Source: a virus. From it: 49,903 bases of DNA. Position 1 is the first letter of the stretch. Each line of letters begins with the position of its first letter. Made by a program: the position numbers and the translations under genes. The stretch lies in IMG/VR virus record IMGVR_UViG_3300032241_000603, positions 1 through 49,903 of that record; one strand, written 5' to 3'. Shown here in pieces: positions 40,355 to 45,061 of the stretch. The notes beneath the pieces were generated by a model that saw nothing but the letters and a program-made list of their open reading frames with translations, was not told the origin of the DNA and did not search any database.

Positions 40355-40612
40355 ATGCCAGGACGTTCATACGGTGCTGAAGAAAAAGCCAAATTAGAAA
40401 GATTAATTAGCGAAGGCTCAACAGTCTTACGTGAAGTTGAAGACTTGCAAGAAGGCTTAAAAGAAACTGTTAAAGCAGTTGCAGAAGAATTACAAATCAA
40501 ACCAAGTGTTATTAACAAAGCAATCAAGATTGCACACAAAGGTGACTGGTCTCAGTATAATGAAGACTGGGAAGAAATTGAAGCAATCTTGGATATTACA
40601 AAACGCATTTAA
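40355..40612 (+). CDS. dsbA: DsbA-like double-stranded-DNA-binding protein of late transcription
   Basis: An 85-residue helical, acidic protein. Its layout follows T4 DsbA (89 residues): an N-terminal helix with Lys/Glu, a middle helix (LQEGLKETVKAVAEELQIKP), the INKAIKIAHKGDW segment and an acidic end (EEIEAILDITKR). T4 DsbA binds dsDNA and is associated with late transcription. It has its own sigma70-type promoter in a striking inverted repeat, which fits an early-expressed regulator. It is directly followed by the SGNH-type gene. The match is by pattern, so I hold it as probable. This is not the disulfide oxidoreductase of the same symbol. Confidence 0.68.
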   Translation: MPGRSYGAEEKAKLERLISEGSTVLREVEDLQEGLKETVKAVAEELQIKPSVINKAIKIAHKGDWSQYNEDWEEIEAILDITKRI

Positions 40613-41509
40613 ATGGCTAGACTGTTTACATTTGGCTGTAGTTATACTGCCTATGAGTTTTATCCTACCTGGAGTGATTTACTAGGTCTCGAGTTTGAGG
40701 AATACGAAAACTGGGGAGTCACTGGTATTGGTAATAGAGGTATTGCTGAACGTGTTGCCGAATGCCACGTAAAGAATCGATTTACTCCAGAAGATATAGT
40801 TATAGTTCAGTGGACTAGTCATGTTCGTCATGACTATTTTAATCCAGAAGCACCAAAGAGACAAAGTAACATAGGTTGGAAAACTTATGGTAATATGTTT
40901 TATCCCGGTAATAGAGATGTATTTACAGACAATTGGATGCGAGACTTTTTCTTTGAACCAGCGTATGTAATGCATAGTTTAAATTCTATGATAATGGTTC
41001 AGGAACTACTAAAATCTTCCGGATGCAAATGGTTCATGACTACTATTAGCGAATGGTCAAAATTAGGCAGTGATTTAGAATTTACCAAAGGTAAAGGTAA
41101 TACTGCTCCGATTGATATTAGAGATCATAGTCCTCGATTTATTCCTTACCTAGAGAGAATCTGGCAAGAGCATGCAGATCATTGGATAGAACCTATTGCA
41201 CTTCATGCCGCTAGAACTCCAGACTTATATTGGTATTTTAACGATGCTCAAAAACCTGGGCAACGCTATTTGGAAATGCATCCAAGTCCAAGACAATACA
41301 TGCATTGGCTAAATGAATGCCTTAGGCCAAAATTAGGATTAGCAAGTCCTCCCCCTGAGCAGTTACAATGGGTTGAGCAGTTAGAAAAAATTAAAATAGA
41401 TACTAAAGAAATTATTAGTGAATTAAAATTAGCATATTACAAACCAAAAGGCAATAATGATTTTTGGCCGCCATCTAGATTATGGCCGTTGGGGTATAAA
41501 GGTTTTTAA
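40613..41509 (+). CDS. SGNH/GDSL-type hydrolase-like protein
   Basis: The 298-residue product begins with a beta strand and FGCSYT (Ser10), the block I nucleophile motif of SGNH esterases. GIGNRGIAERV (block II/N) and IVIVQWTSHVR (block III region) follow, and HPSPRQYMHW near 223 resembles block V. The Asp usually three residues before the His is not present (LEMH), so activity is uncertain. Family members deacylate lipids, polysaccharides or peptidoglycan. It follows dsbA immediately without a gap and precedes the polymerase leader. No signal peptide is seen, which suggests a cytoplasmic target. Confidence 0.72.
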   Translation: MARLFTFGCSYTAYEFYPTWSDLLGLEFEEYENWGVTGIGNRGIAERVAECHVKNRFTPEDIVIVQWTSHVRHDYFNPEAPKRQSNIGWKTYGNMFYPGNRDVFTDNWMRDFFFEPAYVMHSLNSMIMVQELLKSSGCKWFMTTISEWSKLGSDLEFTKGKGNTAPIDIRDHSPRFIPYLERIWQEHADHWIEPIALHAARTPDLYWYFNDAQKPGQRYLEMHPSPRQYMHWLNECLRPKLGLASPPPEQLQWVEQLEKIKIDTKEIISELKLAYYKPKGNNDFWPPSRLWPLGYKGF

Positions 41510-41516
41510 TAAGAGC

Positions 41517-41545
41517 TTGCTCTTAGAGAATAAATACTGTATAAT
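41517..41545 (+). promoter_or_regulatory. promoter(s) for DNA polymerase: TTGCTC-17-TATAAT plus late motif
   Basis: TTGCTC (41517-41522), 17 bp, perfect TATAAT (41540-41545). The -35 lies in a small dyad, TAAGAG-CTTG-CTCTTA (41510-41525). A late core AATAAATA is at 41529-41536. The early start expected near 41552 coincides with the first base of the operator hairpin. Confidence 0.7.
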
Positions 41546-41551
41546 AGGGTT

Positions 41552-41599
41552 TAGTCAGCCACAAGTGACTACACAGGTATTTGCAAGCCACAAATTGCA
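41552..41599 (+). promoter_or_regulatory. tandem 8-nt-loop hairpins before the DNA polymerase start, candidate gp43 RNA operator
   Basis: Hairpin 1: TAGTCA (41552-41557), loop GCCACAAG, TGACTA (41566-41571). Hairpin 2: TGCAA (41582-41586), loop GCCACAAA, TTGCA (41595-41599). The ribosome site AGGAG is at 41601-41605, directly after hairpin 2, and the TTG start is at 41614. T4 gp43 represses its own translation by binding a hairpin with a short stem and 8-nt loop just before its ribosome site. Confidence 0.72.
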
Positions 41600-41613
41600 T
41601 AGGAGAATAAAAT

Positions 41614-44280
41614 TTGAGTTATGTAGACGCATGGTTCGACCGTAGTAATGATATCATTAGAATTGTCGAACGCAATAAAAAAGGTGAACGTGAGTTCCGT
41701 GACATTCCTGTCAAGCACACGTTTTACGTTAAAGACCCGAGAGGGAAACATCAATCTATTTACGGGGATCCCGTTACAAAGATTGTATGTAAGAACACAA
41801 AAGAATTACGCAAAGAACAAGCAATCAATTCAGGTAAGCAATTATTTGAAGCTGACATCAACCCAATCTTTGTTACACTAAGCGAAAACTATCTAAATCA
41901 AGATGCTCCTAAATTAAATGTAGCATTTTTTGATATTGAGGTAGACTTTGATCCAGAACGTGGTTATGCATCGCCCGACGATGCATTTATGCCAATTACT
42001 GCGATTGCTGTCTACCTACAATGGTTAGAAACTATGGTGTGTTTGGCTATTCCTCCTAAGAAACTTCCTATGGAAGAAGCAAAGGAAATGGTCAAAGACT
42101 TTCCTAACACTTATTTGTTTGAGTCCGAAGCAGAACTGTTAGATATGTTTTTGGATCTTATCAAAGACGCAGATATCTTAAGCGGTTGGAACTCAGAAGG
42201 ATTTGACGTTCCATATACTACAAATAGAGTAACAAAAGCCTTGTCCAAAGAAGATACAAGACGATTCTGCTTGTTTGATCAATTTCCTAAACGTCGTGAA
42301 TATGAAAAATACGGCAAGGATGCTGTTACATATGACTTTATCGGTCGTGTGCATCTAGACTACCTAGAACTGTATCGTAAGTATACATATGAAGAACGTC
42401 ACAGTTATCGATTGGATGCTATTGCTGAATATGAATTAGGCAAGCGTAAGACACAGTATGAAGGCACACTAGATCAATTATACAACAATGACTTTAAGAC
42501 ATTTGTTGAATATAACATCAATGACTGTAAACTACTTGACGATTTAGACAAGAAGTTAAAGTTCATGGATCTAGCCAATACGTTGGCCCATGAAAATACA
42601 GTATTGTTACAGACTACAATGGGCGCTGTTGCTGTAACAGAGCAGGCTATTATTAATGAAGCACATCGTAGAGGATTTGTTGTTCCTAATCGTATTAACA
42701 AAGACGATAGAGAAGACAGCAACGCCGCAGGTGCTTATGTAGCTGTTCCTAAAGAAGGTATTCATGATTGGATCGGCTCACTAGATATTAATTCACTGTA
42801 TCCTAGTGCTATTCGTGCGCTCAACATGGGTCCAGAAACTATTATCGGCCAATTGCGTCAAACAATGACTGAAGAATATATCGAAACTAAGATAGCAAAG
42901 GGATCTAGCTTTGCGGCAGCTTGGGAAGGTATGTTTGGTAGTGTAGAATACACAGCCGTAATGAATCAAGAGATTGGCACTGACATTACTATCGATTGGG
43001 AAAATGGAGATAGTGATGTGTTAAGTGCCGCAGAAGTTTATAGACTTATCTTCGAAAGCAATCAGCCTTGGATGCTTTCGGCGAACGGGACTATCTTCAC
43101 CCATGAAAATGAAGGTATAATTCCAGGGCTATTGAAAAGGTGGTATGCAGAACGCAAGGAAATGCAGGCCAAATTAAAAGATGCAATTAAAGCTGGAAAC
43201 AAAGTTGAAGAAGAATATTGGGACAAACGTCAACTTGTTAAGAAAATTAATCTTAACAGTCTGTATGGCGCTATTCTTAATAGCGGGTGTCGCTTTTTCG
43301 ATAAAAGAATTGGTCAGTCTACCACACTCACTGGACGTCAGATCGTCCGGCATATGGCGGGTAAAGTAAATGAAATTATAACAGGTGATTATGACTATAG
43401 AGGTAAAGCAATTATCTATGGTGATACAGACTCTTGTTATTTTTCAGCATATAAAACTTTAAAGAAAGAAATTGACGCAGGTAGTATACCTTGGTCAAAA
43501 GAAACTGTTATTGGATTATATGATCAAATCGGGGAAGAAGTTAATGCTACATTTCCGCAGTTTATGTTAGACACATTTCATTGTCCAAAGTCACGTGGTG
43601 AAGTTATACGTGCCGGTCGTGAGATTGTTGCTATCAAAGGCTTGTTCATTACTAAGAAACGATATGCTGTTCTTTACTATGATAAAGAAGGTAAGAGAAC
43701 CGATGTTGAAGGTAAACCAGGTAAGATAAAGGCCATGGGCCTGGATCTCAAACGTAGTGATACGCCGGAATTTATTCAAAACTTTCTTAGTGATGTTTTA
43801 GAAATGGTTCTTACTGGTAAAGAAGAGCAAGAAGTTTTAGATCATATTACAAAATTTAGAACAACCTTTAAAGCCCGACCTGGATGGGAAAAAGGTTCGC
43901 CTAAACGTGCTAATAACGTTACAGAATACCAAGCTAAGGAAGCCAAGGCAGGCAAGGCCAATATGCCTGGTCATGTCCGAGCTAGTATTAATTGGAATAG
44001 TCTAAAACGCATGTTCCAAGACAAGTATTCAATGAGTATTACAGACGGTGCAAAAGTAATTGTTTGTAAATTAAAATCCAACCCTATTGGATTCACAAGC
44101 GTAGCCTACCCAGTAGATGAACTACGTCTGCCCCAATGGTTTAAAGACCTTCCATTCGACGATGCAGAAATGGAAAATACTATCATAGATAATAAGTTAG
44201 ATAACTTAATTGGCGTTTTGAAATGGGATATTTCAAGCACAGAAGAAAAAAATACATTTAATAGTTTATTTGAGTTTTAA
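41614..44280 (+). CDS. 43: family-B replicative DNA polymerase (T4 gp43 type), TTG start
   Basis: The 888-residue protein (T4: 898) has the exonuclease DxE in FFDIEVDFD (D107, E109). Motif A is LDINSLYPS (D391), motif B KKINLNSLYG (543-552) and motif C YGDTDS (602-607, D604 and D606). A C-terminal clamp-type tail ends FNSLFEF, which fits the peptide by which T4-type polymerases hold gp45. The start is TTG, 8 bp after AGGAG. MSYVDAWFDR is the usual beginning of this family, so the rare start is well supported. It replicates the phage genome with gp44/62 and gp45. Expression is probably limited by the TTG start and by the two operator hairpins in front. Confidence 0.96.
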   Translation: MSYVDAWFDRSNDIIRIVERNKKGEREFRDIPVKHTFYVKDPRGKHQSIYGDPVTKIVCKNTKELRKEQAINSGKQLFEADINPIFVTLSENYLNQDAPKLNVAFFDIEVDFDPERGYASPDDAFMPITAIAVYLQWLETMVCLAIPPKKLPMEEAKEMVKDFPNTYLFESEAELLDMFLDLIKDADILSGWNSEGFDVPYTTNRVTKALSKEDTRRFCLFDQFPKRREYEKYGKDAVTYDFIGRVHLDYLELYRKYTYEERHSYRLDAIAEYELGKRKTQYEGTLDQLYNNDFKTFVEYNINDCKLLDDLDKKLKFMDLANTLAHENTVLLQTTMGAVAVTEQAIINEAHRRGFVVPNRINKDDREDSNAAGAYVAVPKEGIHDWIGSLDINSLYPSAIRALNMGPETIIGQLRQTMTEEYIETKIAKGSSFAAAWEGMFGSVEYTAVMNQEIGTDITIDWENGDSDVLSAAEVYRLIFESNQPWMLSANGTIFTHENEGIIPGLLKRWYAERKEMQAKLKDAIKAGNKVEEEYWDKRQLVKKINLNSLYGAILNSGCRFFDKRIGQSTTLTGRQIVRHMAGKVNEIITGDYDYRGKAIIYGDTDSCYFSAYKTLKKEIDAGSIPWSKETVIGLYDQIGEEVNATFPQFMLDTFHCPKSRGEVIRAGREIVAIKGLFITKKRYAVLYYDKEGKRTDVEGKPGKIKAMGLDLKRSDTPEFIQNFLSDVLEMVLTGKEEQEVLDHITKFRTTFKARPGWEKGSPKRANNVTEYQAKEAKAGKANMPGHVRASINWNSLKRMFQDKYSMSITDGAKVIVCKLKSNPIGFTSVAYPVDELRLPQWFKDLPFDDAEMENTIIDNKLDNLIGVLKWDISSTEEKNTFNSLFEF

Positions 44281-44281
44281 T

Positions 44282-45061
44282 ATGAAGAAGCAAATTATAA
44301 TTGCAGGATACGGATTTGTAGGCAAGGCTGTAGGCAATGCCTTACAAGATAAAAACAATCTATGTATTGTTGATCCTAAATATAGCACATCAAAAATAGA
44401 AGATTTTCCTAATGCCGAAGGTATTATTATCTGCGTGGGCACACCTAGCACCGAATTAGGTGATTGTGATGTTAGTCAAATTTATCAAGTAATGGAACAA
44501 GTTCCAGAAACAATGCCTGTGTTAATCAAATGCACAGTGCGTCCAGACTACTTAGAAAAGTTATTAACAGACTTTCCCAAGCATACGATCATTTATAGCC
44601 CAGAATTTTTACGTGCGGCTACTGCCAATGAAGACTTTGCTAATCAGACATATATGGTTTTAGGTGGAGTCGACAATGAAGGCTTCTGGCAAACACTATT
44701 TCAAGAATCATTGCCTAAATGCAAATTGTTTTTTAATACCAGCATTGTTGAAGCCAGCATGATCAAATATACTACTAATTGTTTCTTAAGTGTCAAAGTA
44801 GCGTTCTTTAATCAGATTTACGATATGTGTAAATTAAATGGCGCAGACTACGATGCTGTTAGACAAATACTAACACATGATTCTAGAATTGGAAATAGTC
44901 ATATGTTAGTTCCAGGGTTCGACGGAGAACGAGGATTTGGCGGAGCATGCTTTCCCAAAGACACAAGTGCATTTATATATTACGCTGACAAACTACAAAT
45001 ATCACACACATTGGTGGAATCAGCAGTAAAATATAACAAAAAGGTTAGGAAAAATCCTTGA
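44282..45061 (+). CDS. short UDP-glucose/GDP-mannose dehydrogenase-like protein
   Basis: The 259-residue product has the NAD-binding GYGFVG (9-14), CVGTPS, YSPEFLR, KYTTNCFLSVKVAFFN and GFGGACFPKD with the catalytic Cys (C223) of UDP-glucose 6-dehydrogenases. Normal enzymes have 390-450 residues and a C-terminal UDP-sugar domain. Here the protein stops soon after the catalytic Cys, so only the NAD domain and central helical domain remain. It may act as a small dehydrogenase on another substrate, need a partner, or be a relic, although the motifs look intact. It begins 1 bp after the polymerase stop and ends over the next -35 element. Confidence 0.85.
   Translation: MKKQIIIAGYGFVGKAVGNALQDKNNLCIVDPKYSTSKIEDFPNAEGIIICVGTPSTELGDCDVSQIYQVMEQVPETMPVLIKCTVRPDYLEKLLTDFPKHTIIYSPEFLRAATANEDFANQTYMVLGGVDNEGFWQTLFQESLPKCKLFFNTSIVEASMIKYTTNCFLSVKVAFFNQIYDMCKLNGADYDAVRQILTHDSRIGNSHMLVPGFDGERGFGGACFPKDTSAFIYYADKLQISHTLVESAVKYNKKVRKNP

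Follow-up and report, generated by a model that had tools for sequence, protein, structure and literature searches.

Tandem pseudoknots at the ribosome site of the DNA polymerase gene in uncultivated T4-like phages, a candidate autogenous operator

Comparison of related phage leaders shows that the leader of a gene 43-type DNA polymerase gene carries two predicted tandem H-type pseudoknots, PK1 (41548-41571) and PK2 (41576-41599). The positions are those of the window, the IMG/VR fragment of 49,903 bases that was analyzed as a whole. Autogenous repression by the polymerase is the leading reading of this element because of its gene specificity, its position at the ribosome site and the precedent in T4, and we assign it a probability of about 0.6. 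Polymerase in excess over DNA primer-templates would bind the leader knots and stabilize PK2, which abuts the Shine-Dalgarno sequence (SD) or in some relatives includes it. With PK2 held closed, the 30S subunit would be unable to start, and the block would last until the polymerase is drawn onto DNA. The two sites could accommodate two polymerase molecules; the presence of two conserved copies suggests two contacts, and at a guess these might be cooperative.

A preliminary description of this DNA had already proposed a gp43 operator here. That proposal is plausible and is now better grounded than before, with gp43 as the presumed ligand: the RNA at the gene 43 ribosome site is conserved, covarying and duplicated, and was found nowhere else in the collections searched. 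The part that finds no support is the T4-type hairpin with an 8-nt loop, since the GCC of the loop is a strand of a pseudoknot helix.

Architecture of the polymerase leader

The two hairpins reported previously are present in the window sequence. In hairpin 1, TAGTCA (41552-41557) pairs with TGACTA (41566-41571) around the loop GCCACAAG, and in hairpin 2, TGCAA (41582-41586) pairs with TTGCA (41595-41599) around the loop GCCACAAA; both are closed by an A-T pair. Hairpin 2 ends one base before AGGAG (41601-41605), and the TTG at 41614 opens a frame encoding a family-B, gp43-type DNA polymerase, as had been described. The claim that such a pair is not expected by chance was also borne out. When the leader was shuffled 200,000 times by a Markov model, two hairpins with loops alike at 7 or more of 8 positions arose once (two hairpins with any loops, 918 times), and the leader pair is the sole hairpin pair of this kind in the whole 49.9-kb window. 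Minimum-energy folding of the leader did not reveal the element (z = -0.34); comparison was needed to reveal it.

A conserved GGU, absent from the preliminary description, precedes each hairpin (41548-41550 and 41576-41578). GCC opens each loop directly after the 5' arm, and GGY lies 5-8 nt upstream of it. Because GGY can pair with GCC, the strands follow the order a-b-a'-b' that defines an H-type pseudoknot, and no linker separates the helices. In the window this order reads GGU, U, UAGUCA, GCC, ACAAG, UGACUA for PK1 and GGU, AUU, UGCAA, GCC, ACAAA, UUGCA for PK2. Helix S1 (GGU with GCC) abuts helix S2, which is 4-6 bp long, and the A-rich loop L3 passes over S1. Since S1 has only 3 bp, one of them U-G in the window, it may need a ligand or Mg2+. 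The features of the locus are as follows.

40355 to 40612, + strand: 85-aa ORF like T4 DsbA (phrog_639, weak PF11126 match)
41531 to 41536, + strand: TAAATA, promoter-like motif (TAARTA), 17 nt before the first GGU; putative promoter
41540 to 41545, + strand: TATAAT, sigma-70-like -10 hexamer by sequence; not conserved at such a distance in relatives
41548 to 41550, + strand: PK1 helix S1, 5' strand GGU; GGY in 174 of 177 distinct leaders
41552 to 41557, + strand: PK1 helix S2, 5' arm (hairpin 1); 5 of 5 counted S2 pairs changed on both sides
41558 to 41560, + strand: PK1 helix S1, 3' strand GCC, the first loop bases; covaries with 41548-41550
41561 to 41565, + strand: PK1 loop L3, ACAAG, A-rich, crossing S1; A invariant at L3 positions 1, 3 and 4 (alignment A3)
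41566 to 41571, + strand: PK1 helix S2, 3' arm; S2 pair changes as for the 5' arm
41576 to 41578, + strand: PK2 helix S1, 5' strand GGU; GGU/GCC in 177 of 177 window-clade leaders
41582 to 41586, + strand: PK2 helix S2, 5' arm (hairpin 2); 10 stem types, middle pairs varying on both sides
41587 to 41589, + strand: PK2 helix S1, 3' strand GCC; as for 41576-41578
41590 to 41594, + strand: PK2 loop L3, ACAAA, of the form NNAAN; AA invariant (alignment A4)
41595 to 41599, + strand: PK2 helix S2, 3' arm; adjoins the SD
41601 to 41605, + strand: Shine-Dalgarno AGGAG, by sequence
41614 to 44280, + strand: gene 43-type DNA polymerase, 888 aa, TTG start (Pfam DNA_pol_B and exo1, PHROG 262)

The best relative of the window polymerase with a solved structure is RB69 gp43 (E 4e-61). 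In many relatives the end of the DsbA-like gene lies directly 5' of the element; in the window a 298-aa ORF that matches neither Pfam nor PHROG (40613-41509) is located between the DsbA-like gene and the polymerase. A UDP-glucose dehydrogenase ORF (44270-45061) overlaps the 3' end of the polymerase gene.

Conservation and covariation in relatives

One polymerase query retrieved 80 contigs at 86-96% identity and a second 80 loci on partly shared contigs, and every locus retrieved by either query carried the element. Adding the 120 loci that a DNA pattern found gave 281 sequences including the window, with 179 distinct leaders. PK2 was present in 281 of these 281 window-clade sequences, and PK1 also in 177 of 178 distinct leaders. 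Pairing was retained in S2 across 20 inner 4-bp stem types in PK1 and 10 5-bp types in PK2. None of the cultured relatives examined (Phosso, Atu_ph07, RaK2 and others) has the element, and a search of named phages gave no cultured carrier; the carriers are a large uncultivated T4-like phage group. Six loci (L091, L093, L101, L152, L189 and L206) have a bulged base in S2 of PK1, as GC-N-GG or GCG-N-G with CCGC. At L123:1-130 (- strand), PK1 is replaced by a hairpin and T run resembling a terminator, PK2 is retained and the polymerase gene runs off the contig.

MAFFT alignments of units of mixed length (A1 and A2) misplaced GGY at the 5' end, and the equal-length sets A3, A4 and A5 were therefore used. 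When S2 and S1 were taken together in the equal-length alignment, 98.0% of the PK1 cells were paired, compared with 76.9% after shuffling, and the covariation score was 0.705 against 0.285. Sliding the partners by 1-3 columns left at most 53.5% paired, with a score of at most 0.16. For PK2, 100% were paired, and the score was 0.334 against 0.090 for the shuffled set.

Within the window clade, L115 and L171 are the only leaders in which the GCC of PK1 has become GCU, and both carry AGU instead of GGU; their polymerases are 76% identical to each other, and the nearest neighbors of L171 (92%) carry GGU/GCC. The exceptions in this clade are UGU/GCC (L209) and GGU/UCC (L031). A scan of IMG/VR for PK2 variants found the compensated pair AGU/GCU before the polymerase in 17 sister-clade loci, whose polymerases are 50-66% identical to that of the window, while the one-sided forms GGU/GCU and AGU/GCC were found there in none (7 and 2 matches lay elsewhere). 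In the sister clade, S1 is AGU or AGC with GCU in PK2, and AGU/ACU or GUC/GAC in PK1. The polymerase tree (130 rows) shows four switches of the S1 pair, each of them on both sides, although four events fall below sign-test significance.

A further test took S2 as its anchor and ignored S1, comparing the base N1 before the invariant G with the loop base N3. In the sister group the combinations were A-U 29, G-C 7, C-G 10, U-A 1 and mismatch 1, so that 47 of 48 were paired; the shuffled mean was 20.9 and the best of 20,000 shuffles reached 31. Alignment A5 agrees with this result for S1 alone (96.8% paired and 80.8% when shuffled). The test took the place of an automatic parser for the best two hairpins, which was noisy on element-free leaders. 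Cross-pairing between the knots, in which the GGY of one would pair with the GCC of the other, was rejected because a single leader can have different S1 types in PK1 and PK2, such as GUC/GAC together with AGU/GCU.

These comparisons bear on the form of the signal that had been suggested, GCCACAAR loops bound by the polymerase. GCC varies in step with GGY upstream of it, the bases in the middle of the loop are free and the A-rich tail alone is kept. In the leader alignment that the preliminary description had called for, the stems vary and stay paired as anticipated, and neither outcome that it had named as a refutation was obtained. Plain T4-type hairpins with gp43 reading the loop would share with T4 and RB69 the gene, the 8-nt loop and the ribosome-site position. 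However, the covariation of the first three loop bases with GGY and the freedom of the middle positions make this reading disfavored and very improbable.

In the window clade, U-G forms the third pair of S1 in 144 of 177 PK1 copies and 177 of 177 PK2 copies. On the opposite strand this pair would be C.A, and the sense RNA is therefore the conserved form. The same observation argues against a DNA element, whether a single-stranded structure at an origin or a site in DNA to which the polymerase binds, as does the weakness of G.T in DNA. A similar idea has been raised for the STAXI repeats near DNA-handling genes (PMC2864571), but the orientation and spacing of the present element track the polymerase ribosome site, and we regard a role as DNA as extremely improbable.

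Gene specificity, losses and the presumed ligand

In a search of IMG/VR with a pattern blind to the gene, 120 of 120 matches preceded a polymerase, 119 by tblastn and the other at L123, where the contig ends with no polymerase tblastn match and the polymerase start ATG TCA TAC GTA GAC GCA follows the element. Because the pattern fixes the sequence frame of PK2, more diverged copies before other genes would escape it. The covariance model R1, which describes one unit, detected the window PK2 weakly (14.9 bits) and missed the bulged forms, and its negatives are thus moderate evidence. With this limited sensitivity, R1 found polymerase leaders and no convincing copy elsewhere in nine records of 139-372 kb. 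Extra R1 matches in L324, L329 and L330 are not knots.

It is unlikely that the ligand is another replication protein, such as a gp32-like SSB or RegA, or a host protein. T4 gp32 does recognize a leader pseudoknot with this topology (PMC3014915, PMC535899), but it targets its own gene, and no copy of the present element was found before other genes by the IMG/VR pattern or by R1 on nine records. The gene 32 operator of T4, T2 and RB69 resembles the element as an H-type pseudoknot in the leader of a replication protein. Its one pseudoknot lies about 67 nt upstream of the start, with UUAAA repeats after it (PMC3014915, PMC535899), whereas here there are two knots with a 3-bp S1, PK2 is 0-5 nt from the SD, and the gene that follows is gene 43, with no UUAAA repeats between knot and ribosome site.

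A tandem small-molecule riboswitch, for example a nucleotide sensor, is improbable as well. Riboswitches can be compact pseudoknots whose third loop is A-rich, and tandem aptamers are found among them, but about 24 nt per unit is less than known aptamers, few unpaired bases are invariant and the element is limited to one phage gene. In addition, Rfam models, including the riboswitch classes and STAXI (RF01728), gave no match in the window and five loci even at permissive E-values. STAXI is the nearest described arrangement, with two or three tandem pseudoknots per row near genes of DNA-handling proteins, but it is enterobacterial, has frequent UUCG tetraloops and accompanies other genes (PMC2864571).

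There is precedent for the polymerase itself as a repressor. The gp43 proteins of T4, RB69 and RB49 repress or bind their own leaders, and T4 gp32 binds a leader pseudoknot (PMC3014915). The T4/RB69 gene 43 operator and the present element share the gene, a leader location near the ribosome site, a stem with an 8-nt loop when viewed as a hairpin and, presumably, autogenous repression. The T4 and RB69 leaders, as read from their sequences, have one hairpin with the loop AAUAACUC, and according to a review nothing indicates that the gene 43 operator contains a pseudoknot (PMC3014915). Here there are two copies, S1 pairing and other loops (GCCACAAG and GCCACAAA) rather than a single hairpin with a UAAC, CAAC or UAAA 8-nt loop. 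The UAAA in the PK1 loops of many relatives (GCCAUAAA) is a resemblance to the T4-type loop only.

Several observations count against a polymerase operator. Not all T4-related gp43 proteins autoregulate (PMC3014915), and the element is missing in part of the sister clade beside polymerases about 80% identical to element-bearing ones, which indicates that it is dispensable. The shortness of S1 and the lack of the element in the cultured relatives weigh on this side as well. A subclade (L336-L348, L353-L359, L364, L367, L369 and L407) has neither element nor SD, and a TATAAT-like hexamer lies about 6 nt before the ATG, suggesting that its polymerase mRNA would be leaderless. The replaced, leaderless-looking leader of the element-free clades indicates that the presumed control is useful but dispensable.

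In some loci other sequences separate the element from the gene. A nearly identical insert of about 750 bp lies between the element SD and the polymerase ATG in three leader contexts (L013:2200-2960, also L029 and L038). It contains a minus-strand DUF723 zinc-finger ORF, probably homing-endonuclease-like, and splits the knots from the gene; the ORF was also found in re-fetched copies of these loci. In L100, L108, L109, L125 and L181 an extra ORF follows the element, which thereby heads an operon. This ORF is small in four of the loci (about 60 aa, Cys-containing, overlapping the polymerase start) and encodes 204 aa in one.

The first SELEX experiment reportedly took as its target the binding of gp43 to its own mRNA, and to our knowledge little is known about the evolution of this binding outside the coliphages. 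No gp43-RNA complex had been solved as of a 2010 review, according to which the gene 32 pseudoknot may be the sole viral one in translational autoregulation (PMC3014915). The leader knots would be a second, on a different gene. We found no description of the element in the open-access literature; an autogenous operator of a replication protein is of a known kind, and its tandem pseudoknot form appears to be new. We consider it slightly better than an even chance that the element is a widespread RNA family outside Rfam whose tandem pseudoknots recognize the replicative polymerase, which represses through them. If so, pseudoknot-based autogenous control, as in gp32, would also reach the polymerase, each leader would offer two binding sites, and one clade would lock the Shine-Dalgarno inside PK2. 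More than 200 distinct natural leader variants offer a compact duplicated fold, compensated S1 changes and natural losses.

Ribosome site and the 5' end of the mRNA

Across the leaders, 9-18 nt separate the end of PK2 from the start codon and 0-5 nt separate it from the SD, which puts that end in the usual 30S footprint. A further clade includes seven distinct leaders in which the CGG or UGG of CGGAG/UGGAG forms the 3' arm of PK2 S2, so that the SD itself is paired.

Most of the 177 distinct leaders have the motif TAARTA 15-21 nt before GGY, and 21 others have TATAAT 11-12 nt before it. As promoters, these motifs would have the mRNA begin at the first GGY or a few bases upstream of it. In the window, TATAAT is closer to GGU (-8) and TAAATA is at -17. 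The former would start the RNA near 41552, with loss of GGU, and the latter a few bases before GGY, with GGU retained. The earlier prediction that the mRNA begins right at hairpin 1 is doubtful, since the commoner, conserved TAARTA implies a start a few bases before GGY.

The location of PK1 near the predicted 5' end and of PK2 next to the SD is also consistent with ligand-free control of translation or mRNA life, by a 5'-end stabilizer, a thermosensor or an intrinsic throttle of the ribosome site. A plain stabilizer would not need two separately kept copies with the same S1 and L3 pattern, and its confinement to one gene would be unexpected; ligand-free control is accordingly rather unlikely.

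NATAARTA, which resembles the T4 late promoter TATAAATA, is intergenic in 5 of 12 occurrences on the + strand, with about 1 expected, and in 0 of 2 on the - strand.
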